Shown here piece by piece: positions 16,750 to 57,351 of a stretch of 64,000 nucleotides of DNA (positions are counted from its first letter, which is position 1; every line of letters starts with the position of its first letter). The stretch spans positions 1 to 64,000 of the forward strand of contig JAUWYR010000004.1 in NCBI GenBank assembly GCA_030615745.1. Reading direction: 5' to 3'. The position numbers and the translations under genes were made by a program. This DNA is from Candidatus Zixiibacteriota bacterium (GTDB lineage: Bacteria; Zixibacteria; MSB-5A5; SM23-73-2). Below the pieces are notes generated by a model. That model was not told the DNA's origin. It did no database searches and saw only the letters and a program-made list of their open reading frames with translations.

Positions 16750-18690
16750 ATGGAAAACCTTTTAGATAAAATCAACTCACCTGCGGACTTAAAAAAGATC
16801 CCTTTAGAAAAACTTCCCCAATTAGCTGAAAAGATAAGGGGAAAAATCATATCAGTTGTTTCAAAAAACGGAGGACACCTGTCCTCGAATTTAGGTGCGG
16901 TTGAACTGACGCTTGCCCTGCATTATGTGTTTGACTCGCCCAAGGATAAAATCGTCTGGGATGTGGGGCACCAGTGTTACACTCATAAGCTTTTAACTGG
17001 AAGAAAAGAGAAATTTGAAACCATAAGAAAATACCTTGGACTTTCAGGATTTCCAAAAAAGGATGAATCAGAGCACGATGTTTTCGATGTTGGACATGCC
17101 TCTACATCCATCTCCTCCGCTCTTGGATTAGTCTGCGCAAGAGATTTAAAAGGGGAGGACTTTTCTGTAATTGCTGTTATCGGGGATGGAGCATTAAGTG
17201 GTGGATTGTCCTTTGAGGGACTTAACAATGCTGGAGCGCAGAAAAAAGACTTAATCGTGATCTTAAATGATAACTCCATGTTCATATCAAAGAACGTGGG
17301 GGCTATGGCTAAATATCTGACTGACCTTTTGACTGATGAGAAGTATAACAAGCTCAAAGCAGAAGTTTGGGAGCTTGTGGGTAAGTTTAAACGAAGAGAT
17401 AAGATCAGAGCTATGGTTCAGCAAGTTGAGGAGTCAGTGAAGGGTTTTTTAGTTCCCGGGATTATATTTGAGAAATTAGGTTTCAGATATTTCGGACCTA
17501 TAGATGGGCATCACCTTCCTCAATTGATCAAGACATTATCCCATCTCAAGACTTTAAAAGGACCGATATTTCTTCATGTTCTGACTAAAAAAGGGAAGGG
17601 ATATAAATATGCTGAGGAGGATGCCCCCCGTTTTCATGGTATAGGCTCTTTTGACAAGGTAACTGGAAATTCCAACTCTGAGAAAGGAAGAAAGGCTTTC
17701 ACCGATGTGTTCTCAGAAGCGATGGTGGAGATAGGAGAAAAAGATGAGAAAGTTGTTGCGATAACTGCTGCTATGTCTTTAGGCACCGGACTTTACTCTT
17801 TTGCCCAGAAGTTCCCACAAAGATTTTTCGATGTTGGAATAGCAGAACAGCATGGCGCCGCATTCTCTGCTGGCTTAGCTCGTCAAGGCTTAAAGCCTGT
17901 TTTTGCGGTCTATTCAACATTTTTGCAAAGGGCTTTTGATCAGGTTATTCATGATATCGCCTTGCAAAATCTTCCGGTGACTTTAGCAATAGATAGAGCA
18001 GGAATAGTTGGTGAGGATGGACCCACTCATCACGGCTTTCTTGATTTATCATATCTTCGTGGAATTCCCAATTTTGTGATTGCCTCCCCCAAAGATGGAA
18101 AGGAGCTAAAGGATTTACTTTACACCGCAGTCAACTGGAAAAAATCTCCTTTTGCATTGAGGTATCCGAGATGTCCTGTTCCTGATCAACCTGAAAAAGT
18201 CGGTATCGATCAAGAGAAAAGTTTTGGAAAGATAGAGGTGGGGAGCTGGGAGGTTTTGAGAGAGGGGAATGATATTTTGATCTTAGCCACAGGCTCTGTG
18301 GTTATTCCTTCGGTTGAGGCTTCTTTTAAACTCACAAAAGATTATATTGATGCCACTGTGGTAAATTGCAGGTTTATAAAACCTCTGGATGAGACCCTTC
18401 TTTTTTCACTTTTAAAAAAGCATGAATTTGTTTTAACAGTTGAGGAGAATTCGCTTCTGGGTGGATTTGGCTCTGCGATTTTGGAGTTTATCCAAAAAAA
18501 CAGCTTAAATAATATCCATTTGAAAATGCTGGGAATTCCGGATAAATTCATCCAGCATGGTAAAAGGGGTCTCCTTTTAAAAGATCTGGGGCTTGACCCT
18601 GATGGGATTTTTAAAGCTGTAAAAGAATTGTTAAAGACAAAAAGGGGGAAATTAAAGTTTCAGATCTCAAAACAAAACAAATTAAAATGA
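16750..18690 (+). CDS. dxs: 1-deoxy-D-xylulose-5-phosphate synthase
   Basis: First enzyme of the MEP isoprenoid pathway, a thiamine diphosphate enzyme that condenses pyruvate and glyceraldehyde 3-phosphate. 646 residues from ATG 16750; a TTG two codons earlier overlaps the ispA stop. Seen are the ThDP motif GDGALSGGLSFEGLNN with NDN, then DVGIAEQHGAAFSAGLA and DRAGIVGEDGPTHHG. At 18200-18217 (VGIDQE) the coding sequence carries an 18-nt repeat word found elsewhere in the window. It overlaps nadK by 4 nt (ATGA). Confidence 0.97.
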   Translation: MENLLDKINSPADLKKIPLEKLPQLAEKIRGKIISVVSKNGGHLSSNLGAVELTLALHYVFDSPKDKIVWDVGHQCYTHKLLTGRKEKFETIRKYLGLSGFPKKDESEHDVFDVGHASTSISSALGLVCARDLKGEDFSVIAVIGDGALSGGLSFEGLNNAGAQKKDLIVILNDNSMFISKNVGAMAKYLTDLLTDEKYNKLKAEVWELVGKFKRRDKIRAMVQQVEESVKGFLVPGIIFEKLGFRYFGPIDGHHLPQLIKTLSHLKTLKGPIFLHVLTKKGKGYKYAEEDAPRFHGIGSFDKVTGNSNSEKGRKAFTDVFSEAMVEIGEKDEKVVAITAAMSLGTGLYSFAQKFPQRFFDVGIAEQHGAAFSAGLARQGLKPVFAVYSTFLQRAFDQVIHDIALQNLPVTLAIDRAGIVGEDGPTHHGFLDLSYLRGIPNFVIASPKDGKELKDLLYTAVNWKKSPFALRYPRCPVPDQPEKVGIDQEKSFGKIEVGSWEVLREGNDILILATGSVVIPSVEASFKLTKDYIDATVVNCRFIKPLDETLLFSLLKKHEFVLTVEENSLLGGFGSAILEFIQKNSLNNIHLKMLGIPDKFIQHGKRGLLLKDLGLDPDGIFKAVKELLKTKRGKLKFQISKQNKLK

Positions 18691-19571
18691 AAAGCATAGG
18701 TATAATCGCTAATCCTAAAAAGCCGAAGGTAAAAAAGATAATAGAACAGATGATTTTGTGGGCTGAAAAAAATAAAATCGACTGCTATCTTTCCGATGAG
18801 CTAAAAGATTTGGTCGGTATCGATCAAGAGATTGGAAAAAAAGAAAAACTCTTACCTTTATCTTCACTCCCTGATAAATCAGAGGTTTTAATATCTTTGG
18901 GCGGGGATGGAACTATGCTCAAAACTGCGAGAACAGCGGGAGAAAAGTGTAATCCAATACTTGGAATAAATCTTGGAAGCTTAGGATTTATCACCGAGAC
19001 AACGACAAACGATCTTGAGAAGACCTTAAATCGTTTGTTAAAAAAGGAATTCCAACTCGAAAAAAGAATGGTTTTGAAGGCGAAAATCGATTTGATGGAC
19101 CAGCCATATGTTTTCGCTTTAAATGATGTAGTTTTGGACAAAGGAGGTGTTGCCAGATTAATTCAGATGCACCTTTACGACAAGGATGAGTTCGTCTGTT
19201 CATATTCTGCTGATGGATTAATAATCTCCACGCCCACCGGTTCAACCGCATATTCTTTAGCTTCAGGTGGACCGATAATAAATCCCAAAATAAACGCAAT
19301 TATTGTTGCACCGATCTGCCCCCATACCCTTGCCTCCAGGCCAATCATCTTTTCAGAAAAAGGTAATTTGAAAATTGTTGTTGAATGCGACCAGAGAGAT
19401 GCTCTGCTCACCATAGATGGGCAGATCGCCAAAACATTAAAGTCTGGAACCTCGGTTTTAGTAAGCAAAGCAGAGCACACTGTTAATCTTATAAAATTTC
19501 CAGAATCTTCCTTTTACTCTGTTTTAAGAAAGAAGCTCCACTGGGGTGCAAGACCGAGGACAGAGGAGTAA
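18687..19571 (+). CDS. nadK: NAD kinase
   Basis: Makes NADP from NAD and ATP (or polyphosphate). 294 residues with GGDGTMLKTAR, the NLGSLGFITE segment and PTGSTAYSLASGGPI, all family hallmarks. At residues about 43-48 (VGIDQE) it carries the same repeat word, in the same frame, as dxs at residues 484-489. It ends the xseA-nadK block; 171 bp of A/T-rich sequence follow. Confidence 0.96.
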   Translation: MKSIGIIANPKKPKVKKIIEQMILWAEKNKIDCYLSDELKDLVGIDQEIGKKEKLLPLSSLPDKSEVLISLGGDGTMLKTARTAGEKCNPILGINLGSLGFITETTTNDLEKTLNRLLKKEFQLEKRMVLKAKIDLMDQPYVFALNDVVLDKGGVARLIQMHLYDKDEFVCSYSADGLIISTPTGSTAYSLASGGPIINPKINAIIVAPICPHTLASRPIIFSEKGNLKIVVECDQRDALLTIDGQIAKTLKSGTSVLVSKAEHTVNLIKFPESSFYSVLRKKLHWGARPRTEE

Positions 19572-19742
19572 TTTTTTTATAGAGGGAAAGATATAAAAAG
19601 GGGAAAGGACGCTTTTACAGGATAAAGAAAAATTAAAACCGCAGTAAAGTTTAAAAAGCAAAATTAAAAAATTTAAAAAAATATTTATGAAAAGATGAAG
19701 ATATTTTATGGTAATGCTCTGCAAAAGGTCAAAAAGTTCTAA

Positions 19743-20288
19743 ATGGCCATTAAAAAATCTGAAATTTTTCTAATTCCAAATCTTTTAACCCTTCTCCGCC
19801 TTATCTTACTCCCTTTTATCTTTTACTTCCTTTTAAAAAACACAACCAAAGATTTAATTTACGCCATAATACTTATGGGAATAGTATATTTTTCAGATAT
19901 CTTCGATGGGTATTTAGCTCGAAAGCTGAATCAAAAGTCAGATTTCGGGAAGATTTTAGACCCGATTGTTGATAAAATAGTCATCTTTTGCTTTGGTTTA
20001 TATGTTCTTTTTTATAAAGGATTTCCGCTCTGGGCTTTTGTGTTAATATTGATTAAAGACATTTCAATTCTTTCTGGTGGTCTATATCTTATCAAAAAGA
20101 AAAATGTAATTCCAACTCCTAATTTTTGGGGGAAATACACTGCCTCAGTCTTAGGAGTAGTTTTGTTTTTGTATATACTGGAAATCGATTCTTTAAAAAT
20201 TTTGGGTTTATGGATTGGTGTAGGAATGGTTCTGATTACAATTTTTACCTATGTAAAACTTTTTATTCATAGCATGCAAAAAAGTTAA
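19743..20288 (+). CDS. pgsA: CDP-alcohol phosphatidyltransferase (phosphatidylglycerophosphate synthase-like)
   Basis: 181 residues with four or five membrane helices. The CDP-OH-P signature is complete: DIFDGYLARKLNQKSDFGKI, then LDPIVDKI. Size and sequence favour PgsA, which makes phosphatidylglycerophosphate from CDP-diacylglycerol, although other family members share the motif. No strong ribosome site precedes ATG 19743. It sits alone between the nadK block and small membrane genes. Confidence 0.85.
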   Translation: MAIKKSEIFLIPNLLTLLRLILLPFIFYFLLKNTTKDLIYAIILMGIVYFSDIFDGYLARKLNQKSDFGKILDPIVDKIVIFCFGLYVLFYKGFPLWAFVLILIKDISILSGGLYLIKKKNVIPTPNFWGKYTASVLGVVLFLYILEIDSLKILGLWIGVGMVLITIFTYVKLFIHSMQKS

Positions 20289-20398
20289 AAGTCAAAGGTA
20301 AATCTTTTAGCTGATAATTTTTTTCAATAACAACAAGGATAATAATCTCTGAAGCTGAAAAAAAGTTTTTAAAAATTTTTTCAAACGAAACTTTATTC

Positions 20399-20416
20399 TC
20401 GGTATCGATCAAGAGA
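20399..20416 (+). repeat. 18-nt element NNN-GTAT-N'N'N'-TCAAGAGA, intergenic copy
   Basis: TCGGTATCGATCAAGAGA, identical to copies inside dxs (18200) and nadK (18814). A second form, TGCGTATGCATCAAGAGA, occurs at 49221 and 56036, and reversed at 42418 and 56284. A third, CGCGTATGCGTCAAGAGA, is at 49145. The three forms differ by compensatory changes in the 3-bp stem around GTAT. Confidence 0.85.
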
Positions 20417-20455
20417 TAAGATTTTCGTAAGTTTTATCAAAAAAGGAGGATTTTT

Positions 20456-20638
20456 ATGTTTTATGGTCAACCCTGGTTTACATTTATAAACATTGGCAGA
20501 ATGATTTTTTCATTAGTCCTTTTAGCATTAGTTATAATAATTCCCATCGTCATCTACAATCTCGGTTCCAAGCTCGATAAGATAAATCAGAAACTTGACT
20601 ACATCGGGGAGCTTTTAAGAACACAGCAAAGGGCATAA
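20456..20638 (+). CDS. small single-pass membrane protein, unknown function
   Basis: 60 residues with a strong AAAGGAGG site before ATG. One hydrophobic helix (about 17-37, FSLVLLALVIIIPIVIYNL) is followed by an amphipathic, heptad-like tail (LDKINQKLDYIGELL). The family is not recognised. Ribosome site and composition argue that it is a real gene; it may assemble through its C-terminal helix. Confidence 0.6.
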   Translation: MFYGQPWFTFINIGRMIFSLVLLALVIIIPIVIYNLGSKLDKINQKLDYIGELLRTQQRA

Positions 20639-20744
20639 GGTTATTTGAAAAACTGAATTTTTATATAAAATCCCCATTCTTACTCTCATGCGATTGTTAT
20701 CTCTCTACTCAGCAAAGGGTAAGTTGGGATGGACTTTAAACTCC

Positions 20745-20766
20745 CTCTCCACAAGTGGAGAGGGAA
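20745..20766. repeat. CCCTCTCCAC palindrome
   Basis: CCCTCTCCAC, then AA, then GTGGAGAGGG: a 10-bp perfect stem followed by AAAAGGGTGAGG. This short G/C-rich repeat type is common between genes in many bacteria. It lies in the 244-bp gap before the next gene. Confidence 0.75.
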
Positions 20767-20882
20767 AAGGGTGAGGAAAGATCATTCATATAAAAAATAA
20801 CGCGAAAAGCTTTCAATAAAACAGTTGCGAAACTTGGCTAAAATACTTATCTTGATTTTGAAAATTAGATAAAGGAGAAGCT

Positions 20883-21548
20883 ATGAGAAAGACGATAATT
20901 TTTATTTTAGCTTTATTTTTTCTTTTTGCAATTTTTCAAACATCTTTTGGCAAAAAGGAAAAGACCGGGAAAGTTAAAGGGAACGTTTTTACTGACAAAA
21001 AATTCGGATACCAGCTCACCTTTTTGGAAAACTGGAAGCTTTCAACTGAAAAAGAGCCCTCTCTGGTCCGGGCAACCTTGATGAAAAAAAACTACCAGGT
21101 TGACAGATCCACGAGATTCGGAGGGTATGAGGTAAACATCCCGACAATAATTATCTTAGCTGATACCACCTCCCTATCTCTGGAGGAGTTCAAAAATGCA
21201 CTTCTGGAGGAGAGCAAAAAGATAAAGAATTTGGATAAGTATAGGCTGAAACTTGAGTTTTTAACCAACTCAGAGCTTTTGCAGGAAAGGGAGACCTTAG
21301 TCGATTCTATTCCAGCTTTTATTTTGACCTTTAAGAAAAGATATTTTAAGACCACTGTAGATGAAACCCGGGGTATAACTCCTGAGGGAACTGAAGTAAT
21401 AGTTGAAGAGTTTATCGTCGGTCATATCGTTTTTTTCAAAAAGGAAAAAAATATTTTTTTGGTGCATTTTTCCTGTGAGCGACAATTCATCGGACCGAAT
21501 CATCGTGAATTTACCAATATTATGAATGGATGGGAATTTAAAGATTAA
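20883..21548 (+). CDS. secreted protein of unknown function (PsbP/DUF1795-like)
   Basis: 221 residues. A signal peptide of about 22 residues (LFAIFQTSFG) precedes a single globular domain. VFTDKKFGYQLTFLENWKLS resembles the opening strand of PsbP/DUF1795-type domains (FGYxLxxPxxW). The middle has DTTSLSLEEFKNALLEESKK and the end has FLVHFSCERQFIGPNHREF. Strong ribosome site AAAGGAG. No catalytic motif is visible and no neighbour reveals a role; probably periplasmic. Confidence 0.6.
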   Translation: MRKTIIFILALFFLFAIFQTSFGKKEKTGKVKGNVFTDKKFGYQLTFLENWKLSTEKEPSLVRATLMKKNYQVDRSTRFGGYEVNIPTIIILADTTSLSLEEFKNALLEESKKIKNLDKYRLKLEFLTNSELLQERETLVDSIPAFILTFKKRYFKTTVDETRGITPEGTEVIVEEFIVGHIVFFKKEKNIFLVHFSCERQFIGPNHREFTNIMNGWEFKD

Positions 21549-21552
21549 AATC

Positions 21553-21587
21553 CTAAATTCTAAATTCTAAATTCAAAATTCAAAATA
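21553..21587. repeat. heptamer array, 5 units
   Basis: CTAAATT three times, then CAAAATT and CAAAATA, starting 4 nt after the stop of the preceding gene. Confidence 0.75.
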
Positions 21588-21680
21588 GAATATAAGCCTT
21601 CTTAATTGATCAATCGATAAAATGCTTGCTGATTAACTTTTTAAGATTAAAGAAAATTTTTTAAAAAGTCCTCTTTTTGA

Positions 21681-21709
21681 TTGACAATAACTCTTTCAGA
21701 TATTAATTT
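21681..21709 (+). promoter_or_regulatory. promoter of lapA-lapB
   Basis: TTGACA (21681-21686), 17 nt, TAATTT (21704-21709), 24 nt before ATG; the -10 is imperfect. Confidence 0.5.
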
Positions 21710-21733
21710 AGAAATTAAATCGAAGGAGGTTGT

Positions 21734-22039
21734 ATGTGGGCTGTAAGATTTTTTCTGATTATAGTGATTATCATCTTGGTCATTGGCTTCTCCATATATA
21801 ATTCAGCTGAGACGGTCGATGTTAATCTATTTGGCAAGGTGTATATAGATGTTCCAATGATCTACCTTGCTTTCTGGGCATTTGTCATCGGTATGTTGAT
21901 TTCATTTCTTTTAGGCATAACCCACTACCTCAAATTTCAATCTGAACTCAGAGAACAGAAAAAGGGAAACAAAAGCCTAATGGAGGAGATCACCACTTTA
22001 AGAAATATCCCCTTGGAGGAGGATATAGAGGAAAAATAG
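21734..22039 (+). CDS. lapA: LapA-family (DUF1049) membrane protein
   Basis: 101 residues: two transmembrane helices (about 5-25 and 42-65) around a short periplasmic loop containing NSAETVDVNLFGKVYIDVPM, typical of LapA/YciS, followed by a cytoplasmic coiled coil. In E. coli LapA partners LapB in controlling lipopolysaccharide synthesis. AAGGAGG precedes ATG and the next gene is lapB, so the assignment is supported by context. Confidence 0.85.
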   Translation: MWAVRFFLIIVIIILVIGFSIYNSAETVDVNLFGKVYIDVPMIYLAFWAFVIGMLISFLLGITHYLKFQSELREQKKGNKSLMEEITTLRNIPLEEDIEEK

Positions 22040-22054
22040 TTGGGAGGATAAAAA

Positions 22055-23200: not shown

Positions 23201-23268
23201 AAAAATAGTTTTTTTATCCTCTATTTAAAAAAGTTTTAATAACTAAAGAAAGTATCCTTTCGGTTCAG

Positions 23269-28311: not shown

Positions 28312-30060
28312 ATCACCATACTTCCCCAAGATTTGGTTAACAAAATCGCTGCTGGTGAGGTGGTGGAGCGTCCGGCATCTGTTGTCAAGGAGCTGGTTGA
28401 GAATTCGATCGATGCTAAGGCTAAAAGTATTAAGGTGAAAATAAGATTCGGCGGGGTGAAATTAATAGAAGTTACAGATGATGGGGAAGGGATGAATCCT
28501 GAGGATGCGGAGCTTTCTTTAAAAAGACATGCGACAAGCAAGATAAAAGAAAAAGACGACCTTTATAATATAAAAACCTTAGGTTTCAGAGGGGAAGCTC
28601 TACCATCCATTGCCTCTGTTTGCTTTTTGGAACTTTTAACAAGACAAAAAGATGCACTTTCAGGAACTTTTCTAAGCTTAGAAGCAGGTATGATAAAACA
28701 AAAAAAAGAGATCGGCGCGCCTTGTGGAACATCTGTAACTGTAAAAGAGCTTTTTTATAATACCCCTGCAAGGCTTAAGTTTTTAAAATCCAAACTCACT
28801 GAAACCAAACATATAATCGACCTTATACAGAATTATGCCTTAGCATATCCATCTCTATTATTTGAGCTCGAATCTGACCAGAGAACTCTTCTGAATTTAC
28901 CAGCTTCAATTTTAAAACAGAGAATAGCTGACATCTGGGGAAATGATCTGAAATCAAAATTGGTAGAGATGGAAAAAGAAAGGTCCGACCCTGAGATTTT
29001 CGGATTTTTAGGAAAGCCTGAACTCACAAGGTCTAATCGTTCTGAAATACGCATTTTCGTTAACAGAAGACCTGTGGTCTCAAGGGTCTTAAATCATGCT
29101 ATACAATCGGGATATAGAGACCTTCTTCCACAGGGGAAATTTCCCTTTGCTTTTGCCTTTTTCGAGATAGACCCGGAAAAGATCGATGTGAACGTTCATC
29201 CAACAAAAAGGGAGATCAAATTCTCAAATGAACATCAAATCTACAATCTGCTATATTTGAAAGTGAAAAAGTCACTTAAGAGTTTTCAGACTATCCCTTC
29301 ATACAATCTTTCATCTGAAAAATTGGTATCTGAAAAGTCCGAAAAAGCTAAAGTTGGAGAAAAAATAATTGATTATAGCACAAAAATGCAAAAACCCGAC
29401 TTTATTCAGGAAAAGATAATTGATAAAATCTATCCTGCTGAAAAAAGGAAAGAAATTGAGCCAGAAGAAAAAACAACTTTTCAGAAAATTTGGCAAATCT
29501 TTGATCAATATATATTGGTCCAGAACGAAGATGAGTTATGGATTATCGACCAGCACGCAGCACATGAGAGGATACTTTATGAAGAAATAAGTGAGAATAT
29601 AGGCAAAAGTGGTCTATTATCACAAAAGCTGCTTTTTCCAGAGACACTTGAGCTCTCTCCAAAAGAGTTTTTGATCTACCGGGAAAATTCCGATATTTTA
29701 CTAAAGTTAGGATTTGAGGTGGAGCTTTTCGGTAAGAACAGCCTTTTAATTTCTGGGGTTCCATCTCTTTTAAAAAACCGGTCTGAAAAAAACTTTTTCT
29801 GTGAGCTTTTATCTGAGCTGGATGAAAATTTAAAAAAAGAAGGGGACAGGATAAAATCGGTTGCTAAAGCTTTTGCCTGTAAATCAGCGATAAAATCAGG
29901 CCTGAGGCTTTCTTATGAGGAGATAAAAACACTTTACCAGAGTCTTTTATCAACAAAAAATCCCTTCAGTTGTCCTCATGGCAGACCAACCATTATAAAA
30001 ATATCACTTGAAGAGCTCGATAAAAAGTTTATGCGAAGCATTCTTCGAAAAAGAACCTGA
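28300..30060 (+). CDS. mutL: DNA mismatch repair protein MutL
   Basis: 586 residues. GHKL ATPase motifs: KIAAGEVVERPASVVKELVE, NSIDA, DDGEGM and FRGEALPSIASV. The C-terminal domain keeps the endonuclease metal motif DQHAAHERILYE near 417, plus an ACKSAIKSG segment and CPHGRPT. It should therefore nick DNA itself, as in bacteria lacking MutH. AAGG precedes ATG 28300, inside the direct repeat. The C-terminal codons contain the 18-nt palindromic word at 30032-30049 (MRSILR), shared with truB and an intergenic site. miaA follows 8 nt later. Confidence 0.97.
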   Translation: MKNKITILPQDLVNKIAAGEVVERPASVVKELVENSIDAKAKSIKVKIRFGGVKLIEVTDDGEGMNPEDAELSLKRHATSKIKEKDDLYNIKTLGFRGEALPSIASVCFLELLTRQKDALSGTFLSLEAGMIKQKKEIGAPCGTSVTVKELFYNTPARLKFLKSKLTETKHIIDLIQNYALAYPSLLFELESDQRTLLNLPASILKQRIADIWGNDLKSKLVEMEKERSDPEIFGFLGKPELTRSNRSEIRIFVNRRPVVSRVLNHAIQSGYRDLLPQGKFPFAFAFFEIDPEKIDVNVHPTKREIKFSNEHQIYNLLYLKVKKSLKSFQTIPSYNLSSEKLVSEKSEKAKVGEKIIDYSTKMQKPDFIQEKIIDKIYPAEKRKEIEPEEKTTFQKIWQIFDQYILVQNEDELWIIDQHAAHERILYEEISENIGKSGLLSQKLLFPETLELSPKEFLIYRENSDILLKLGFEVELFGKNSLLISGVPSLLKNRSEKNFFCELLSELDENLKKEGDRIKSVAKAFACKSAIKSGLRLSYEEIKTLYQSLLSTKNPFSCPHGRPTIIKISLEELDKKFMRSILRKRT

Positions 30061-42218: not shown

Positions 42219-43269
42219 AGAAATTCTTAAAAAAATCGAGCAAAGCAAAAAGATACTTATAACATCACACACAGATCCAGATGGAGATTCTTTCTGTTCA
42301 CAGCTTGCTTTAGCTAATTTTTTGGATAGTCTTGGCAAGACCTATGAAATTTTTAACCAGGGAGAAATCTCGAGCAAATATCTTTTTTTAGATGAGAAAA
42401 GAAGAATAAAAAACAAATCTCTTGATGCATACGCAAAAACAGTTCAAAATCTTTTATCTTCTCCTAAAGATTATGATTTAGTTATATTCATTGAGTGCTC
42501 TAATCTGGATCGAGTTGGGTGGGTTAAAAATTTGATACCAGAGGATAGTTTTTTGATAAACATAGACCATCACCGGGATAACACCTTTTTCGGCAGTATA
42601 AATTATGTTGACCCAAAAGCTTCTGCTACCGGTGAGATGATCTATGATATTATGAAAACCTTTGGATTTTCTTTTGATAAAAAAACTGCTGAGTTAATCT
42701 ATGTAGCTATAATGACCGATACAGGAAGATTCAAATACTCCAATACCACTCCCAAATCTCTGAGGGTATGTGCTGATTTGTTAGGATATGGAGTGGACAT
42801 TCGCTTTTTAACAGAAAAGATCTATTTCAATTTTTCTGAACCTGCTTTGAGGCTTTTAGGAACTACTTTGGAAAACTTAGAGCTTTTCGCAGGTAATAAA
42901 ATATCTTTTTTGACCATTACTTATCCTATGCTGGAAAAGTTTAAAGTCCCACATCAGGATATTGATGGGTTTGTTGAATTTTCGTTATCTTTAGAAGATA
43001 GTAAAGTTGGAGCACTTTTTTTGGAGACAAAAAAGGGGTTCGCTCAAGTGAGCTTGAGGTCTTGTGATTTTATGGATGTTTGCCAAATAGCTAAAAGCTT
43101 TGGTGGAGGAGGTCACAAAAACGCATCAGGTTTTTTATCTGAGGGAAAAATCGATGTGGTTAAAAGAAAAGTTTTAGATTCCCTTTTAAAAAAGCTTAAG
43201 GAGAAATCCTCAAGCTTCTCTAAAAAAAAGATGTCATACAAAATCGAAAATCGAAAAGAAAAAAGATGA
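42190..43269 (+). CDS. nrnA: DHH/DHHA1 phosphoesterase, NrnA-like (oligoribonuclease / pAp phosphatase)
   Basis: 359 residues. The metal motif SHTDPDGDSFCSQLAL and NIDHHRDNTFFG are DHH signatures; the C-terminal DHHA1 motif is SFGGGGHKNASGF. NrnA degrades nano-RNAs and dephosphorylates pAp. Position between rbfA and truB is conserved. Residues about 77-82 (SLDAYA) are encoded by the reversed 18-nt repeat TCTCTTGATGCATACGCA (42418-42435). The 29-nt overlap with rbfA makes the exact start less certain. It overlaps truB by 4 nt. Confidence 0.92.
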   Translation: MRKGKRLETKEILKKIEQSKKILITSHTDPDGDSFCSQLALANFLDSLGKTYEIFNQGEISSKYLFLDEKRRIKNKSLDAYAKTVQNLLSSPKDYDLVIFIECSNLDRVGWVKNLIPEDSFLINIDHHRDNTFFGSINYVDPKASATGEMIYDIMKTFGFSFDKKTAELIYVAIMTDTGRFKYSNTTPKSLRVCADLLGYGVDIRFLTEKIYFNFSEPALRLLGTTLENLELFAGNKISFLTITYPMLEKFKVPHQDIDGFVEFSLSLEDSKVGALFLETKKGFAQVSLRSCDFMDVCQIAKSFGGGGHKNASGFLSEGKIDVVKRKVLDSLLKKLKEKSSSFSKKKMSYKIENRKEKR

Positions 43270-44285
43270 CTCAGAATTTAGCTAAAAAGACAAATGCTTT
43301 TTCCTTACGTAACTCTACGGGTCTTTTTAATGGAAAAAAAATTCTTGATGGTCTTTTGATAGTAAACAAAAAAAGGGGTCCCACCTCTTTTGATGTCGTC
43401 CAAAAGTTGCGTAATATACTAAATTACAAAAGGATAGGACATACAGGGACACTCGACCCCTTTGCCTCAGGTGTATTGGTTTGTTGTCTTGGCAAGGGAA
43501 CAAAAATTGTCCAGTTTATAACTTTTTGGGAAAAAGAATATATCGCAAAGATTAAGTTAGGTGAACAGACCGATACATACGACTCTCAGGGAAAGATTGT
43601 GAAAAAATTCGAAGAATGCTTCGCAAATGAGGGATTTGTGCTCGAAGAAAATAAAATACAAAGTGTGATAGATTCTTTTAAAGGTGAAATTTGGCAAACT
43701 CCTCCTTTGTATTCAGCAATAAAATATAAGGGAAAAAAACTGTACCAATTTGCAAGAGAGGGAAAAGAGGTTAAAATTAAAAAAAGAAAAGTAAAAATTG
43801 AAAATATTGAGATTTTAAAGATAAAGCTCCCCTTTGTTTGGATAAAAGTAAGGTGTTCTAAAGGAACCTATATCAGGAGCTTAGGTTTTGATATTGGTAA
43901 AAAGTTAGGTTGCGGAGCATATCTAATTTCTCTATGTCGAACCAAGGTGGGTCCATTTGAGCTAAAAGATTCTTTCACTCTCGATGCAATAAGAAAAATA
44001 AAAGATGAGGGTAAATTGAACAAAATCGTTGTCTCTATGGAAAAAGCACTCGAAAATCTCCCATCTCTTGTGGTCTCAGATGAGAACAAATTCAAAATAA
44101 AGCATGGTCAAGACCTTAAAGTAAAGGATATAAAATCTGTGAAAAAAGATTTCTCAAAAAAAGATAGGGTGGTTTTAAAGGATGGCTCTGGGAAAATCTT
44201 GGCAATAGGGGAAAGTCTGGTCTCCTCTGAAGAGATCTCAGATGAACAAAAAGTAATTTTTAGATACATGAGGGTAGTTGTTTGA
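43266..44285 (+). CDS. truB: tRNA pseudouridine-55 synthase
   Basis: 339 residues. GLLIVNKKRGPTSFDVV, catalytic Asp in GHTGTLDPFASGVLV, YSAIKYKGKKLYQFAREG and GTYIRSLGFDIG identify TruB, which makes the T-loop pseudouridine of tRNAs. The first 28 residues precede the conserved core and are unusual. Residues about 115-120 (FEECFA) are encoded by the 18-nt palindromic word TTCGAAGAATGCTTCGCA at 43608, also found at the mutL end and at 54947; this lies in a region of variable length in the family. Confidence 0.95.
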   Translation: MTQNLAKKTNAFSLRNSTGLFNGKKILDGLLIVNKKRGPTSFDVVQKLRNILNYKRIGHTGTLDPFASGVLVCCLGKGTKIVQFITFWEKEYIAKIKLGEQTDTYDSQGKIVKKFEECFANEGFVLEENKIQSVIDSFKGEIWQTPPLYSAIKYKGKKLYQFAREGKEVKIKKRKVKIENIEILKIKLPFVWIKVRCSKGTYIRSLGFDIGKKLGCGAYLISLCRTKVGPFELKDSFTLDAIRKIKDEGKLNKIVVSMEKALENLPSLVVSDENKFKIKHGQDLKVKDIKSVKKDFSKKDRVVLKDGSGKILAIGESLVSSEEISDEQKVIFRYMRVVV

Positions 44286-47718: not shown

Positions 47719-47754
47719 TCCGAAGGATTTCCGAAGGACTCTTCGAGCATAGAA
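47719..47754. repeat. 36-nt repeat, copy 1 (upstream of the M16 gene)
   Basis: Starts TCCGAAGGATTTCCGAAGG and ends TTCGAGCATAGAA; identical over 36 nt to 57944-57979 inside murI. It ends 1 nt before the M16 ATG, so it supplies or displaced the ribosome-binding region. Confidence 0.92.
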
Positions 47755-49065: not shown

Positions 49066-50070
49066 ATGAAACCTATTTTATTTCCCCTTTTTTTTCTTTT
49101 AATTTTAAGTTTATCACTTTTTTTTATCTGGAGAATTGTGTATGCGCGTATGCGTCAAGAGACCGAAGGTCAAGAGACATCAAGAGAAAGGTTTAAATCC
49201 CAACAATTTTCATCCGAAAATGCGTATGCATCAAGAGATAAAAATAATATTTTACTCTATCATAAAATAGAAGATAAGTGGGAGTGGGGAATCACCCGAC
49301 AAAGGATAAGCCAATTTGAAAAGCAGATGAAATTTCTTTATAAGCAGGGTTATAAATTGATGAGGTTGGACCTGTCCGGTCAGGAAAAAAATTTCACTAA
49401 TGACTTTGATTCTGAGAACAAAAAGATTTTTTTGACCTTTGATGATGGTTATGAATCTGTCTATACTCATGCTTTTCCTATTCTTGAGAAGTTTGGTTTT
49501 TCTGCAACTGTTTTTCTTATCACAGGATGGGTAGGAAAAAAGAATTTGTGGGATATAAACTGGGGGAAAAAGTTTAATCACCTCTCTTGGTCACAGATAG
49601 AAGAGCTTAAAAAATTCGGATTTAATTTTGGTTCTCATACTGTGAATCATCCTGATCTAACTAAACTTAATGGAAAAGAAGTTGAATATGAGCTTTTGAA
49701 TTCAAAAAATATGATAGAAGATAGGTTAGGGGAGAGGGTTGAGTTTTTATCCTATCCATTTGGAAAATATAATAGATCAGTTCAAAGAATTGCTGAAGAT
49801 ATTGGTTATAAAAACGCGTTCACTATTTGCTCTGGACCAAAAAAATTTTCCGACCCATATGCTTTAGGACGATTAGGGATCTATCTTTTTGATTCGAGCT
49901 TGACTTTACATATAAAATTGAACCAAACACCAATTTTTTGGATAGAGGATATGAAAGGAAGGATAATTAACCAATTTGCCAATGGGACAACTCTTTTCAA
50001 GTCAAAACCAAAATACGATTTTTGCTTAAAAAGTGAAAAGCCTAAAAGTATCTTCGTAAAAAAGGTATGA
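49066..50070 (+). CDS. membrane-anchored polysaccharide deacetylase (NodB domain)
   Basis: 334 residues from ATG 49066 (a TTG frame start 30 nt earlier lies in the M16 gene). One N-terminal membrane helix (LFFLLILSLSLFFIW), then a spacer, then the NodB domain: FLTFDDGYESVYTHAFPIL near 123, SHTVNHPDL and FLSYPFGKYN. These hold the metal Asp/His residues and predict N- or O-deacetylation of a cell-wall or surface glycan. The spacer at residues 27-58 is largely repeat-encoded: CGCGTATGCGTCAAGAGA at 49145, a CGAAGGTCAAGAGACATC segment, and TGCGTATGCATCAAGAGA at 49221. Confidence 0.9.
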   Translation: MKPILFPLFFLLILSLSLFFIWRIVYARMRQETEGQETSRERFKSQQFSSENAYASRDKNNILLYHKIEDKWEWGITRQRISQFEKQMKFLYKQGYKLMRLDLSGQEKNFTNDFDSENKKIFLTFDDGYESVYTHAFPILEKFGFSATVFLITGWVGKKNLWDINWGKKFNHLSWSQIEELKKFGFNFGSHTVNHPDLTKLNGKEVEYELLNSKNMIEDRLGERVEFLSYPFGKYNRSVQRIAEDIGYKNAFTICSGPKKFSDPYALGRLGIYLFDSSLTLHIKLNQTPIFWIEDMKGRIINQFANGTTLFKSKPKYDFCLKSEKPKSIFVKKV

Positions 50071-50414
50071 AAATGAGAGCATTTTTCTTGCGGTGGTTTG
50101 TTTTGAGCCTGGCAATTTTTATCGTTGCTAACATAACTAATCTTATATATATTAACAATTTAAAAACTTTGATCTTGGGAAGCTTGATTTTGGGCATTCT
50201 TAACGTGTTCCTTAAGCCGATTTTGATTTTTTTCACTTTGCCTTTGAGCATAATGACTTTAGGTCTTTTCATACTGATTATTAATGGAGTTGTTCTTTAT
50301 CTGGTCTCTTTTTTGGTCTCTGGTTTTGAAATTCAAAGTTTTGGAAAAGCTTTTTTAGCAGCTTTTTTGATAACGATATTGGGTGCCTTTATTAATTGGA
50401 TAGTCAAAGACTGA
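50067..50414 (+). CDS. phage-holin-superfamily IV-like membrane protein (PF04020 type)
   Basis: 115 residues with four hydrophobic helices. LGILNVFLKPILIFFTLPLS, then IMTLGLFILIINGVVLYL, is the pattern of the widespread YvlD/holin-IV-like family, which is chromosomal and not evidence of a prophage. It overlaps the deacetylase gene by 4 nt. Function unknown; probably envelope-related. Confidence 0.85.
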   Translation: MKMRAFFLRWFVLSLAIFIVANITNLIYINNLKTLILGSLILGILNVFLKPILIFFTLPLSIMTLGLFILIINGVVLYLVSFLVSGFEIQSFGKAFLAAFLITILGAFINWIVKD

Positions 50415-50465
50415 ACATAAGAAGGTAAGATGGGTCTACGATTTCTACACAGATTCTAAGGTATC

Positions 50466-50512
50466 GGAGCCATAAAGGCTCCGCTAAGCGTAGCAGAGGG
50501 TTTATCCCTCTG
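50466..50512. repeat. pair of mini-hairpins before asnS
   Basis: GGAGCC, ATAAA, GGCTCC, and CAGAGGG, TTTAT, CCCTCTG, separated by GCTAAGCGTAGC. The second ends 8 nt before the asnS ATG, where a ribosome site would be expected. Confidence 0.7.
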
Positions 50513-50520
50513 AGAAAAAG

Positions 50521-51819: not shown

Positions 51820-51851
51820 AAGATTGAATTAAAAGAGATAAAAGGATTAAA

Positions 51852-54305
51852 ATGCAAATGTATCCTTTTAAAGAAATAGAGGAGAGGTGGCAGAAAAGAT
51901 GGGAAAAGCAAAAGCTCTACCTTACCCCTGATCCTCCCAAGAAGAAATATTACATGCTGGTTATGTTCGCCTATACCTCTGGTGATATTCACATAGGTCA
52001 TTTCAGAAATTACATAATAGGTGATGTGATTGCCAGATACAAGACGATGAATGGATTCGATGTTCTGCATCCGTTTGGATGGGACGCTTTTGGTCTTCCA
52101 GCAGAGGAGGCGGCAATAAAACACGGTGTTAATCCAGAGGAGTGGGCTTTAAAAAATATAGAGGTCTCAAGAAAGACTATACAGAAAAGCGGGGTATCTT
52201 TTGATTGGGAAAGGGAGGTCATAACCTGCCTTCCTGATTACTACAAATGGACTCAATGGATGTTTCTGAGACTTTATGAGAATAACTTAGCTTATCGAGG
52301 TAAATCATTTGTGAATTGGTGTCCACATTGCAATACTGTTTTAGCTAATGAGCAGGTTGTCGGGAGGAGGTGCTGGAGATGTGAACATGAGGTTACCAAA
52401 AAGGAGCTTTCGCAATGGTTTTTTAAAATCACCGCCTACATCCAGAGATTACTTTCTGATCTTTTTAAGCTTAAAGACTGGCCCGAACCAATAAAAATAA
52501 TGCAAAGAAACTGGATCGGTAAATCAGAGGGGACAGAGATAGATTTCACAATAGAAGGAACTGGCGAGAAAATCTCTGTTTTCACCACACGATCTGATAC
52601 TATATATGGAGTTACATTTATGGCAATCTCTCCGGAAAATCCCCTTTTGCAAAAATTAAATATTGAGCCCAAATACAAAAAAGATGTTGATGATTATATA
52701 AGAAAATCTGCTTTTAGAAATGAGGCTGAAAGAGTTTCTGCAGCAGAAAAAGATGGTGTTTTCACTGGAAGATTTGCTATAAACCCACTCTCTGGTGAAA
52801 AGATACAGTTATGGGTAGCGGATTACGTGGTAGGCACCTATGGAACTGGAATCGTGATGGGTGTTCCAGGACATGACCAGAGAGATTTCGAGTTCTGTAA
52901 AAAGTATAAAATCCCCATAAAAGTAGTTATACAGCCAAAGGGTCTTACTTTTTCTCCCAATAAGATGAAAAAGGCATACGTTGAACCGGGAGTGATGGTC
53001 AACTCAGACAGATTCAATGGACTTTGGTCTGAAAAGGGAATTGAGAAGATAACAGAATATGTAGAATTAAAAAAACTTGGGAGGAAAAAAATAAATTATA
53101 AGCTGAGAGACTGGCTTATCTCTCGTCAGAGATTTTGGGGAGCGCCAATTCCTATGATTCACTGCGAAAAATGCGGGATGGTTCCTGTGCCTGAAAAAGA
53201 TTTGCCTGTTCTTTTGCCTAAAAGTAACATAGACTTTTTTCCAAAAGGCAGGTCTCCTTTAGCTGATGTGGATGAGTTTATCAAGACTACCTGCCCTAAG
53301 TGTAAAGGTAAAGCTAAAAGAGACCCTGACACGATGGATACGTTTGTCTGTTCCTCCTGGTATCTTTTCAGATACACTGATCCTAAAAATAAAAACCAGC
53401 CTTTTGCAAAAAAGAAAGTTTCCCGGTGGTTGCCAGTGGATAAATACATCGGAGGTGCAGAACATGCAACAGGTCATCTTTTGTATTTCAGATTCTTTAC
53501 CAAGTTTTTACACGACATCGGGTATTTGTCAGTCGATGAGCCAGCAATTGAGCTTTTTAACCATGGGATGGTTTTGGATTCAAAAGGTGAGGTGATGTCA
53601 AAATCGAAGGGAAATGCAGTTTCTCCGATCGATTTGATGAACCAGAAAGGTGTAGATGTTTCAAGAATTGCGGTCTATTTTGCTGCCCCTTCTGAGAAGG
53701 AGATATTGTGGACAGGCGAAGGGATTACAGGTGCATCGAGATTTCTGAATAAAATTTATAATTTAGCACAAAAAGTTAAGCCAAAAGACTTAAATTATAA
53801 TATCAAGTTTAATGACTTAACTGATACTGAAAAAACAACTTACAGAAAATTACATCAGACGATAAAAAAGGTTAATGAAGACATAGAGACTCTACAATTT
53901 AACACTGCTATTGCTTCTATGATGGAGTTTTTGAACCTGTTTAGCTCAATATCTTCTGATTCAAGGATTTATACCTATTGTCTTAAGAATTTAATCCAGC
54001 TTTTAGCTCCATTTGCTCCACATTTAGCAGAGGAGTTATGGGAGAAATTGGGTTTTAAACAGAGTGTTTTCAAATCCAAATGGCCCGCTTATGATAAAGA
54101 CGCAGTGATCGAAGAATTAGTTACTATCGTAGTTCAGGTAAATGGCAAGCTCAGGACGTCTTTTGAGGTTCCATTGAATACTGATAAGGAGAAGATCGAG
54201 AGAATAGCTTTGGAGAATGAGAAAATTAAGAAATTTACTAAGGATAAAAGGGTTTTAAAGACTATTTTTATTCCTAATAAATTGATAAATCTGGTGGTGG
54301 GGTAG
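51852..54305 (+). CDS. leuS: leucyl-tRNA synthetase
   Basis: 817 residues, the single-chain bacterial form. Class I signature GDIHIGHFRNYIIGDV near 43, a zinc-type knuckle CPHCNTVLANEQVVGRRCWR, a CP1 editing domain with TTRSDTIYGVTFMAISPENP, a second Cys cluster in the insertion (HCEKCGMVPVPE), KMSKS as VMSKSKGN near 580 and the C-terminal anticodon-binding domain. AAAAGG precedes ATG 51852. Confidence 0.97.
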   Translation: MQMYPFKEIEERWQKRWEKQKLYLTPDPPKKKYYMLVMFAYTSGDIHIGHFRNYIIGDVIARYKTMNGFDVLHPFGWDAFGLPAEEAAIKHGVNPEEWALKNIEVSRKTIQKSGVSFDWEREVITCLPDYYKWTQWMFLRLYENNLAYRGKSFVNWCPHCNTVLANEQVVGRRCWRCEHEVTKKELSQWFFKITAYIQRLLSDLFKLKDWPEPIKIMQRNWIGKSEGTEIDFTIEGTGEKISVFTTRSDTIYGVTFMAISPENPLLQKLNIEPKYKKDVDDYIRKSAFRNEAERVSAAEKDGVFTGRFAINPLSGEKIQLWVADYVVGTYGTGIVMGVPGHDQRDFEFCKKYKIPIKVVIQPKGLTFSPNKMKKAYVEPGVMVNSDRFNGLWSEKGIEKITEYVELKKLGRKKINYKLRDWLISRQRFWGAPIPMIHCEKCGMVPVPEKDLPVLLPKSNIDFFPKGRSPLADVDEFIKTTCPKCKGKAKRDPDTMDTFVCSSWYLFRYTDPKNKNQPFAKKKVSRWLPVDKYIGGAEHATGHLLYFRFFTKFLHDIGYLSVDEPAIELFNHGMVLDSKGEVMSKSKGNAVSPIDLMNQKGVDVSRIAVYFAAPSEKEILWTGEGITGASRFLNKIYNLAQKVKPKDLNYNIKFNDLTDTEKTTYRKLHQTIKKVNEDIETLQFNTAIASMMEFLNLFSSISSDSRIYTYCLKNLIQLLAPFAPHLAEELWEKLGFKQSVFKSKWPAYDKDAVIEELVTIVVQVNGKLRTSFEVPLNTDKEKIERIALENEKIKKFTKDKRVLKTIFIPNKLINLVVG

Positions 54306-54538
54306 AGGCAAAACCAGGGATTTTTGATGATTGATGATTAATGAAGATTTTTAAATTGCGAGGTGAGTTTACATAATGTTTATTATAAGACCTTTTATGG
54401 TTCGCTTTATCTTGAGTTCTTAAAAGATAAAGTTCGCATTCCTTCTTTTTTAGAGGGAAACTTTTGTTCGCTTTTTTTAGCCTGGTCAAATGGAAGAAAT
54501 TTTAAAACCCAGTTCCCTGACGTTAGGAGGATTCCATT
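54306..54538. other. start of a 1-kb repeat-rich gap
   Basis: Three heptamers (TTGATGA, TTGATGA, TTAATGA) at 54324-54344 follow the leuS stop. The rest up to 54538 is A/T-rich with no recognised feature. Confidence 0.5.
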
Positions 54539-54658
54539 ATGAAGTCATTATCTGTAAAAGGAGCCGGCAGAGCTTCCCAGAAATCCCAGCCCACGTATGT
54601 CAAACTCTTAATGGAATGCGAACCTTTCAGGTTTGCCTTTCCTTATAGTTTTTCTTAA
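54539..54658 (+). CDS. possible 39-residue small protein
   Basis: ATG 54539 is preceded by TAGGAGG at a good 8-9 nt spacing. The reading frame (MKSLSVKGAGRASQKS, then QPTYVKLLMECEPFRF) runs 39 codons to TAA. The composition is not obviously repeat-like, but its 3' third contains the hairpin GCGAACC, TTTCA, GGTTTGC typical of the repeats around it. No family is recognised. It may be a genuine small gene, or a relic of a longer one broken by repeats. Confidence 0.35.
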   Translation: MKSLSVKGAGRASQKSQPTYVKLLMECEPFRFAFPYSFS

Positions 54659-54985
54659 AAGTAAAGCTGAAGCTTTACACTCCATATCTCACCTTATAGA
54701 TTTGGTTTTTTCAGAAATCTCTTATTTTAAGATTATGTGGGTTATTGACTTAAACTAAAACTTTAAGTCATAATAATATATTATCTGGAGTGCAACAACT
54801 TGTTGTTGCAACTCTATGCGAAAACAAGTTTTCGCACTACCTAAGAGAAAAGCAGAGCAAGGGTGCTCTGCGCTATGAGGTTTTGTGTTTTTTGAACAGA
54901 CAGGAATGTCTGTTCTACCTTCGGTTATTTTTTAACATCGGGCATGTTCGAAGAATGCTTCGCAAAGCCCGACGCTACATTTAAA
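54659..54985. repeat. cluster of mini-hairpins with differing stems
   Basis: In order: GTAAAGCT/AGCTTTAC (54661), GCAACAAC/GTTGTTGC (about 54793), TGCGAAAAC/GTTTTCGCA (about 54816), GCAGAGCA/TGCTCTGC (about 54852), GAACAGACA/TGTCTGTTC (about 54895), then TCGGGC/GCCCGA. The loop of the last holds the 18-nt word TTCGAAGAATGCTTCGCA at 54947. Loops are 2-4 nt in most. A 64-codon open frame across this cluster is an artefact of it. Confidence 0.8.
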
Positions 54986-55382
54986 AAAATTTATCAAACA
55001 CAAAAATTGGGATTACTAACTATCTTTGCAAACGTTTTTTATTTTTCAGCAAACCTCTCCCCTATCAGACCTAAACTAAAACTTTAAGTCGAACGTCGGG
55101 TATGAAACCCGACGCTACGCTTAAATTTTCTGTGCTGGTCAAGTCCCCTGACTCGACCAGAAAATCTCTGTTCCGCGGGGATGTTATCTCTGGCCAGCCA
55201 GGCATCCCCGCAAATAAATTCTGGGTGGATGATAACATCCGCCCAGAACAAAGAAATATATGTACGTAATCTTTTGTCCCTAAATCCTTTTTTTAGGAAC
55301 AATTATTATTAATTAGTATATAAGTATATGATATGCTCAAATTTCCTTGCAACATGATTTTCATTTTGATATATTAAAAAAG
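54986..55382. repeat. remaining gap before smpB with hairpins and a 4576-like element
   Basis: CGTCGGG, a 7-nt loop and CCCGACG at about 55093; CTGGTCAAGTC paired with GACTCGACCAG at 55134-55159; and at 55180-55246 a relative of the 4576-4654 element (ATGTTATC ... GATAACAT arms, CTGGCC core). The last 130 nt before smpB are A/T-rich and probably hold its promoter, but no clear boxes were assigned. Confidence 0.65.
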
Positions 55383-55853
55383 ATGGAAAAAAAAGAAGAG
55401 ATAAAAATAGTAGCGACTAACAGGAAGGCTCATCACGACTATACTATAGTTGAGACCTATGAGGCTGGGTTGGAACTAAAGGGGAGCGAGGTTAAATCTT
55501 TAAGGGAAGGTAAAGTCTCTTTGAGGGACTCCTTTGCCAGGATAGTTGATGAACAGCTACATTTATTAAATATGCACATAAGCTCCTATGAGAAGGCATC
55601 TAAGTTTGGACATGATCCAAAAAGAACAAAAAAATTGTTGATGCATAAAAGGGAAATAAAAAGACTTATGGGCAAAACTTTTGAAAAGGGATACACCTTA
55701 GTCCCTTTAAAAATCTACTTTAAAGGAAGTTTTGCCAAGGTGGAATTAGCCCTAGTCACTGGTAAAAGAAAATATGATAAAAGGAGAGCCCTGGCTGAAA
55801 AAGAGGCTAAAAGAAAAATAGAAAGAGCCTTTAAAGAGAGACAAATCTCTTGA
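55383..55853 (+). CDS. smpB: SsrA-binding protein SmpB
   Basis: 156 residues from ATG 55383 (an earlier in-frame TTG lies in A/T-rich leader). NRKAHHDYTIVETYEAGLEL, KGSEVKSLREGKVSLRDSF and the basic C-terminal helix match SmpB, the tmRNA partner in ribosome rescue. No tmRNA gene was found nearby. The stop codon at 55851 is inside a TCTCTTGA repeat, so the last residues (RQIS) are repeat-influenced. Confidence 0.96.
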   Translation: MEKKEEIKIVATNRKAHHDYTIVETYEAGLELKGSEVKSLREGKVSLRDSFARIVDEQLHLLNMHISSYEKASKFGHDPKRTKKLLMHKREIKRLMGKTFEKGYTLVPLKIYFKGSFAKVELALVTGKRKYDKRRALAEKEAKRKIERAFKERQIS

Positions 55854-55878
55854 TGTCTCTTGACCTTCGGCATACGCA
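55846..55878. repeat. TCTCTTGA/CATACGCA repeat between smpB and the amidase gene
   Basis: Two TCTCTTGA words, CCTTCGG, then CATACGCA. Reversed, this resembles the 49145-49187 block of the deacetylase gene minus one internal TCAAGAGA segment. Confidence 0.75.
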
Positions 55879-55884
55879 AATAAG

Positions 55885-57351
55885 ATGGCAAAAAAAGTAG
55901 CTTTTTTAACAATCTTTTTAGTGTCGTCGTTTGCCTTTACATCTTTATCCCAAAGCATTTATGAACTTTCAAACTTACCTAAAGTAAAAATAGATAAAGT
56001 TGATTATGTTTGTTTAGATGAAGTTGTCCGGGTTTTGCGTATGCATCAAGAGATAGGTGGTAAGATTTATCAGGATGAAAAAGAGGGAAAAGCGATATGG
56101 TATTATAAGGGTCAAAGATTGGAATTTACACCCTTTTCCCCTTACGTTTTAATTGATAACTCAATCTATGATCTTTTGTTCGAGGTAAAATTAAAGAAAG
56201 GGGAAATCTTTGTTCCTCAAAAAAATTTCTTTTCCCTTTTAAAAGAGTTAAAAAAGCAAAGCAAAAAATTCAAGGAAAACTTATCTCTTGATGCATACGC
56301 ATTTTCAAAACCCTCTTATCTTGAGTATAACATCACAGATATTTTTGCATCTAAAAAGCTCAATGGAATTTTAATCGAGATATTTATTTCCTATCCCATA
56401 AATTATGAGGTTTTTAAAAGTGAGAATAACTGTATCAACATTTTCTTCTATGAGGGGAAAATCGACACCGGTTATTTTAATTTCAAAGAAATTCCAAGTA
56501 TAATAAAAAAGATAACGGCTTATCAATACGGAAACTCAGTCCAGGTCTCCTTATGGACGAAAAAGTCCTTTCATACACTATCCCACAATCTGGAATCTTT
56601 TCCTTTTCGTATTCAAATCTCCTTGGAGGATACAACCGAGATTGCTAAAAGTGCACAAGATGATCTAATCGACGTGGTGGTCATTGACCCAGGTCATGGT
56701 GGGGTCGATTTTGGATTTTTTGGTCAAAGGAGTCTTTGGGAAAAAGATATCACTTTAGATATAGCCTTAAGGTTAAAAAAGCTTTTAGAGAAAGAAACTG
56801 ATTTAAAAGTTGTCCTTACAAGAGATTATGATGTTTTTATTCCTCTTAAAAAAAGAGCAAGAATAGCAAATAAAGAGGGTGGAGACCTGTTAATAAGCAT
56901 TCACTGTGAATTTTCTGAGGACGAAAATGAATCTGGATTTGAAATCTTCTTTTTCGGAGAGTCTCAAAAAGATAAAGAAACGACTTTAACTTTTAAAGAG
57001 GATTTAGAAAAAACCAATGAAATTTTTTCTGATTCGATTTTTATTCTCCCTGACACCACCCAATACCTGTTCTTTGAACAGTCAAAAAATTTAGCTTTTA
57101 TAGTTTGTGAGGAGATGGAAAAAAAACTTAAAATGTTTTCAAAGGGAATTTTTCAAGAAAAGTTTTTAGTTTTGAAAAAAGCCTATATGCTTGGAATTTT
57201 AGTTAATTGTGGATTTATCTCCAATCCAGATGAGGAAAAGCTTTTGGCACAAAGTCCTTTTAGAGAAAAAATTGCAGAGGCTCTGTTTTTTGGAATAATG
57301 AGGTTTAAAATTGAGGGTGAGCACGAAAAAAGCTATGAAGCTAAAAGATGA
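55885..57351 (+). CDS. Amidase_3-family N-acetylmuramoyl-L-alanine amidase with altered catalytic position
   Basis: 488 residues: a signal peptide (about 1-23), a 240-residue N-terminal beta-rich region, then Amidase_3 from about 263. Zinc ligands are seen in VVVIDPGHGGVDFG, SLWEKDITLDIALRL and LLISIHCE (usually SIHxN). The family's catalytic Glu in the usual VETGFLSN is replaced: here LVNCGFISNPDE near 440, Asn for Glu. It may be inactive or work as a binding/regulatory protein. Repeat words encode residues about 51-57 (LRMHQEI) and 134-139 (SLDAYA). It overlaps murI by 17 nt. Confidence 0.85.
   Translation: MAKKVAFLTIFLVSSFAFTSLSQSIYELSNLPKVKIDKVDYVCLDEVVRVLRMHQEIGGKIYQDEKEGKAIWYYKGQRLEFTPFSPYVLIDNSIYDLLFEVKLKKGEIFVPQKNFFSLLKELKKQSKKFKENLSLDAYAFSKPSYLEYNITDIFASKKLNGILIEIFISYPINYEVFKSENNCINIFFYEGKIDTGYFNFKEIPSIIKKITAYQYGNSVQVSLWTKKSFHTLSHNLESFPFRIQISLEDTTEIAKSAQDDLIDVVVIDPGHGGVDFGFFGQRSLWEKDITLDIALRLKKLLEKETDLKVVLTRDYDVFIPLKKRARIANKEGGDLLISIHCEFSEDENESGFEIFFFGESQKDKETTLTFKEDLEKTNEIFSDSIFILPDTTQYLFFEQSKNLAFIVCEEMEKKLKMFSKGIFQEKFLVLKKAYMLGILVNCGFISNPDEEKLLAQSPFREKIAEALFFGIMRFKIEGEHEKSYEAKR

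Follow-up and report, generated by a model that had tools for sequence, protein, structure and literature searches.

The window analysed here is a 64,000-nt stretch of the genome of a sediment bacterium of the Zixibacteria. It carries, among other genes, dxs, nadK, nrnA, a deacetylase gene, an SmpB-like gene and an amidase gene, and copies of very short hairpin units are dispersed in and between genes (Table 1). The unit F1, on which the original prediction centred, is composed of a 3-nt arm, a short loop, a complementary arm and the tail TCAAGAGA. The pattern GTATNNNTCAAGAGA matches the window eight times, at all eight predicted places, with a shuffle expectation of 0.00. The other units are copies of two further 18-nt families (F2 and F3) and of a 15-nt unit (F5). 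The 33-nt composite near the 3' end of the SmpB-like gene (55347-55853) provides the final codon and TGA stop of that gene, overlapping it at 55846-55853. Repeats of other kinds are also present in the window: at least eight tandem 123-nt units at 12963-14123, probably a repeat protein, and intergenic arrays at 134-1005, 4422-4565 and 59200-59407 in which short words recur (AGTAAACGGAAAACAG and GAGATTTGAGAAAGAGA, for example).

Table 1. Small hairpin units located in the window, grouped by family; SM23_73_2 is the congener of the host.
Position	Strand	Unit	Context	Comparison with relatives
18200-18217	+	F1 TCG-GTAT-CGA-TCAAGAGA	in dxs, adds VGIDQE	net 18-nt gap; relatives lack the peptide; rather ragged alignment
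18814-18831	+	F1 TCG-GTAT-CGA-TCAAGAGA	in nadK, adds VGIDQE	single 18-nt gap; residues absent in nine relatives
20399-20416	+	F1 TCG-GTAT-CGA-TCAAGAGA	intergenic	18-nt gap in SM23_73_2
42418-42435	-	F1 TGC-GTAT-GCA-TCAAGAGA	in nrnA, SLDAYA on gene strand	six-residue insert relative to SM23_73_2
49137-49187	+	51-nt nested composite: TGTGTATG, F1 CGC-GTAT-GCG-TCAAGAGA (49145-49162), F5 CCGAAGGTCAAGAGA (49163-49177), CATCAAGAGA	in deacetylase gene	region absent in SM23_73_2
49221-49238	+	F1 TGC-GTAT-GCA-TCAAGAGA	second in deacetylase gene	not present in SM23_73_2, surrounding alignment gapped
56036-56053	+	F1 TGC-GTAT-GCA-TCAAGAGA	in amidase gene, adds RMHQEI	residues absent in six relatives
56284-56301	-	F1 TGC-GTAT-GCA-TCAAGAGA	second in amidase gene, SLDAYA on gene strand	relatives shorter, boundary inexact
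30032-30049	+	F2 TGC-GAA-GCA-TTC-TTC-GAA		
36406-36423	+	F2 TCC-GAA-GGA-TTC-ACA-GAA		18-nt gap in SM23_73_2
43608-43625	-	F2 TGC-GAA-GCA-TTC-TTC-GAA		
54947-54964	-	F2 TGC-GAA-GCA-TTC-TTC-GAA	tip of larger inverted repeat (GTCGGGC...GCCCGAT)	
47730-47747	+	F3 TCC-GAA-GGA-CTC-TTC-GAG		19-nt gap in SM23_73_2
57955-57972	+	F3 TCC-GAA-GGA-CTC-TTC-GAG		
55846-55878	-	33-nt composite TGCGTATG-[CCGAAGGTCAAGAGA]-CATCAAGAGA (F5 part 55856-55870)	3' end of SmpB-like gene	
10230-10245	+	F5-like CC-TCAA-GG-TCAAGAGA	ATG before, CA after	

The genome containing the window (2.28 Mb in 74 contigs, 98.6% complete) holds 78 matches to GTATNNNTCAAGAGA, 43 forward and 35 reverse, against one match for the pattern read backwards as a control. 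When this search is extended to relatives, as the original prediction had proposed, the congener candidate division Zixibacteria bacterium SM23_73_2 has six matches and the remaining relatives among 39 genomes (the host and 38 relatives) have zero to three. A stricter F1 pattern finds 75 copies in the host, four in SM23_73_2 and one in each of three others among 132 genomes of the phylum. The commonest F1 18-mer yields four single matches, one of them in SM23_73_2, in a scan of about 85,000 species with one genome each that may omit the window's own genome. Eight viral contigs among those searched with the element pattern contain one match apiece. SM23_73_2, with its six matches, is the only multi-copy carrier found besides the host. 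None of the loci searched has F1 in a tRNA or tmRNA gene. One F1 copy is carried by an insertion sequence that is itself multi-copy and has a DDE transposase reading frame (L011 1498-1515, L045 1-20; contig ends C12, C37 and C42).

Removal of duplicates leaves 76 distinct F1 copies in the host, 73 of which have perfectly complementary arms. Six arm types are represented, TGC/GCA (42 copies), TCG/CGA (18), TCC/GGA (8), CGC/GCG (2), TCA/TGA (2) and TAC/GTA (1). Non-complementary arms, far from being as frequent as complementary ones, are confined to three singletons. The arms in SM23_73_2 are TTC/GAA (three copies), CTC/GAG and TGC/GCA, plus one unpaired. When each of 15 distinct sequences is counted once, pairing is found in 86.7% of cells, compared with 13 to 46.7% for slid structures. 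Thirteen of their 45 pair cells carry two-sided changes and none a one-sided standard-pair change, with about seven independent arm changes in total because copies of the same arm type are clonal. The covariation score of these sequences is reached by 0 of 500 shuffles. Thus, the 3-nt arms do change together, as predicted. The covariation may reflect a hairpin selected for mobility, or a copying mechanism that changes both arms in concert.

The tail and the loop behave differently, both having been described as fixed. Allowing one mismatch in the tail brings in hardly any extra F1-like copies, whereas the loop can be GTAT, GGAC, GAAT or GAA above the same tail. The tail may form a second mini-hairpin, (A)TC-AAGA-GA(T), as suggested by two internal pairs and flanking bases. 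As single-stranded DNA the 18-mers are predicted to fold weakly (about -1 kcal/mol) and unremarkably compared with shuffles, so the hairpins could matter only when bound or together with other features. The 18-nt hairpin element of the original prediction is real, but the hairpin occupies only its first half, and other 18-nt families exist beside it in the genome.

The second family, F2 (TSCGAAGSATTCNNNGAA), is built from TGC-GAA-GCA or TCC-GAA-GGA followed by TTC-NNN-GAA and is unrelated to F1 in sequence. It is present in 52 copies in the host, eight in SM23_73_2 and one in the other 37 genomes together. F3 (TCCGAAGGA plus CTCTTCGAG) and F4 (TGCGGAGCA plus TCTTGACGA) are 18-nt units with a layout like that of F1; the short core of F4 is too unspecific as a query for counting. 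The layout common to the 18-nt families is a 3-bp mini-hairpin followed by a second mini-hairpin or by a tail of 8-9 nt. Adjacent double mini-hairpins show no excess genome-wide (508, against 516 and 668 in controls), so the layout alone is not enriched and only particular sequences recur. All eight F2 matches in SM23_73_2 sit within one larger dispersed repeat (GAAGAATCTC...TGCGAAGCATTCTTCGAATTTCC; L239-L245, L080), suggesting that F2 predates the expansion in the host or was carried by that repeat. Together, the small hairpin units number well over a hundred copies in the host genome and are recently inserted.

Units also occur in tandem and within one another. The 15-nt unit F5 (CCGAAGGTCAAGAGA) has 31 matches in the host; in the 29 distinct contexts examined it is embedded in another unit or abuts one, in most cases at TGCGNNNG^CA. 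The TCC form of F1 is nested within F4, as TGCGGAGCATC^...^TTGACGAT. In units of the F5 type, the last base of the arm has its pairing partner in the C or T immediately after the unit. The sequence TCCGAAGGATTCATCGAAGATCAAGAGATAG, found at L209, L224 and L232, can be read as an F2 unit whose second loop has taken up a 15-nt TCGAAGATCAAGAGA unit. A larger inverted repeat, GTCGGGC...GCCCGAC (L058, L059 and position 54947), holds a different stack of small units at its tip in each locus, as if it collected insertions.

Most F1 copies lie inside genes. Open reading frames of at least 80 residues contain 53 of the 76 host copies, distributed over frames +1 (21), -0 (14), +0 (7), +2 (6) and -2 (5); no copy uses the remaining frame, where the tail reads TGA. 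This pattern can be explained by selection against stops and frameshifts after insertion, with no need for a function of the peptides. In the window, seven of the eight copies are in coding frames, as noted originally, with 20399 the sole intergenic copy and those at 49145 and 49221 sharing one gene. The use of unrelated genes, more than one frame and both orientations likewise holds genome-wide, with five frames and both strands in use. Among homologues, VGIDQE of NadK is present in the host only, compared with nine relatives, and the same is true of Dxs in a more ragged alignment. The amidase insert RMHQEI is missing from six relatives, and the six-residue NrnA insert is seen in comparison with SM23_73_2. 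The peptides in NadK, NrnA and the amidase, and less cleanly Dxs, are thus no conserved family motif.

Empty sites show how the copies arrived. Twenty-two F1 sites can be aligned to DNA of SM23_73_2, which is one close relative and, like the host, a draft assembly, and F1 is present there at none of them. In six of the alignments F1 corresponds to one uninterrupted 18-nt gap, with no target duplication. The clearest case is L016, where the host has GATGCACTG[TGCGTATGCATCAAGAGA]GAGGATGACC and SM23_73_2 has GATGCATTG-GAGGATGACC, the target bases not being duplicated. A histogram of insertion sizes peaks at 18-19 nt, a peak that is not unbiased since most of the aligned loci were picked for carrying F1. 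Relatives outside the genus also lack the nadK and amidase inserts, which identifies these as gains in the host rather than losses elsewhere. Copies were thus acquired once the host lineage had separated from its nearest sequenced relative, by insertions of exactly 18 nt.

The insertion sites share a sequence preference. The 60 non-nested F1 sites have A or T at position -2 in 58 cases, T at +1 in 46 and G at +4 in 45 (75%; p=8.5e-21 against base composition). The 40 non-nested F2 sites have A or T at -2 in 36 cases, A at -1 in 25, A at +2 in 26 and G at +4 in 27 (68%; p=2.9e-11); both p-values assume independent sites. A target of about AWN^TANG is thus common to F1 and F2 despite their unrelated sequences, suggesting that one insertion machinery probably serves both. 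The start (TNNG) and end (A) of the units themselves fit this target, so that the junction of tandem copies resembles it. The shared preference is the chief support for a single putative enzyme serving all the units. A role of the tail as a guide pairing with the target was considered and dropped, as the target TARGA is similar to the tail rather than its complement.

We interpret the units, with a probability of roughly 0.7, as non-autonomous mobile repeats of very small size that belong to a Zixibacteria genus and are moved by a trans-acting enzyme. Such an enzyme, a putative DNA recombinase or transposase, would recognise the folded strand by its shape more than by its sequence and would join it at an AWN^TANG-like target. 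Copies in genes would persist because 18 nt add six tolerated residues without a frameshift. A more far-reaching version, which we regard as possible but doubtful, is that mobility is set by shape and length and not by sequence. One recombinase would then move any 18-nt strand with two adjacent mini-hairpins, a TNNG start and an A end, and families would arise freely, nest and seed hexapeptides.

Genes for Y1 transposases are present in the host (three) and in SM23_73_2 (six), and the units could be minimal REP/REPIN-like hairpins moved by these REP-associated tyrosine transposases. Like REPs, the units are short hairpin repeats, and both the inverted mini-hairpin pairs of F2 and F3 and insertion without target-site duplication fit the described action of Y1 enzymes and the doublet architecture of REPINs (PMC3116915). 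However, REPs flank their RAYT gene, whereas all three host genes (L116, L118 and L120) have other, larger inverted hairpin repeats on their flanks, with a GTAG foot at two of the genes, and the F1 tail is absent around these loci. These genes and hairpins are apparently ordinary REP/RAYT pairs in Zixibacteria. In addition, REPs are 20-40 bp long, lie mainly between genes and carry the GTAG or CGTC tags that define their superfamilies (PMC3733652); F1 and F2 lack such a foot, and no such motif is found in the flank at -4 to -1. Of the enzymes suggested in the original prediction, Y1 transposases are thus present but lie next to other hairpin repeats, and we consider movement by them unlikely.

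Errors of replication or repair offer a second alternative, in which the inverted arms would result from snap-back of the polymerase or from template switching, and the copies from capture of short oligonucleotides at breaks. Concerted arm changes without one-sided intermediates are what snap-back copying would produce, and tandem and nested copies are also compatible with it. Random capture, however, would not be expected to yield the same sequence 42 times at unrelated sites, a constant length of 18 nt or a common target motif, which makes this origin improbable. Spread through an RNA copy and a reverse transcriptase, as in retrotransposition, a retron or a diversity-generating element, appears slightly less probable again. 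An RNA intermediate has been proposed for the small dispersed repeats (SDRs) of cyanobacteria, and hairpin covariation would be compatible with RNA. Yet the reverse transcriptase that the original prediction suggested looking for (PF00078) was found in neither the host nor SM23_73_2, control genomes being positive, and intermediates of the G-U type occupy 0 of the 45 pair cells. That the peptides are conserved residues or functional protein motifs, the DNA likeness following from peptide use, is almost certainly wrong: most copies do lie in reading frames, but they use five frames and both orientations, some are intergenic, homologues lack the residues and the exact 18-nt gaps of the empty sites refute it.

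Read as mobile repeats moved in trans, the units can be compared with known small repeats. The SDRs of Nostoc punctiforme and relatives, the subject of Elhai et al. (2008, Genome Res 18:1484), are reportedly 21-27 nt long, with compensatory changes and self-nesting. As SDRs are described, they share with the present units a very short, non-autonomous nature, a structure that compensatory changes maintain in families differing in sequence, nesting, restriction to one clade and precise insertion at a preferred site. Recent mobility of the SDR type, seen as empty sites and nesting, is also found here, with 22 sites empty in SM23_73_2 and nested copies in the host. SDR5 inserts precisely into HIP1 (PMC4390886), and the SDR work on Nostoc punctiforme is cited in PMC3116915 and PMC4390886. 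Compared by description, the 18-nt units fall outside SDR1-8 on length, and no sequence likeness to them was seen. They belong to another phylum, prefer about AWN^TANG over HIP1, lie mostly inside protein genes, and have a host in which no reverse transcriptase was found. By analogy, then, the units are SDR-like, but their size, phylum, target and intragenic habit set them apart.

Other comparisons are more distant. Rickettsia palindromic elements are palindromic and lie in frame within unrelated genes; they use several frames and orientations, and each adds tens of residues. The in-frame habit in unrelated genes, with several frames and orientations, is common to both; however, these elements are about 150 bp long (PMC10969869), as against 18 nt and six residues here. 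With such differences in size and structure they are not the closest analogue, as originally supposed, and the cyanobacterial SDRs are closer. MITEs are likewise non-autonomous and presumably moved in trans, but the present units have neither a target-site duplication nor a pair of terminal inverted repeats and are far smaller.

At 18 nt, the units would be as small as almost any recorded mobile DNA, and smaller than the cyanobacterial SDRs at their reported size. Several families of unrelated sequence with the same length, layout and target preference point to a single putative enzyme that would read DNA shape. With a defined target motif and many clean empty sites, the way in which such tiny repeats move becomes directly testable. 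Since a length of 18 nt is divisible by three and the tail closes only one of the six frames, the units enter core genes (dxs, nadK and nrnA among them), and the addition of hexapeptides provides a route to sudden small protein insertions.
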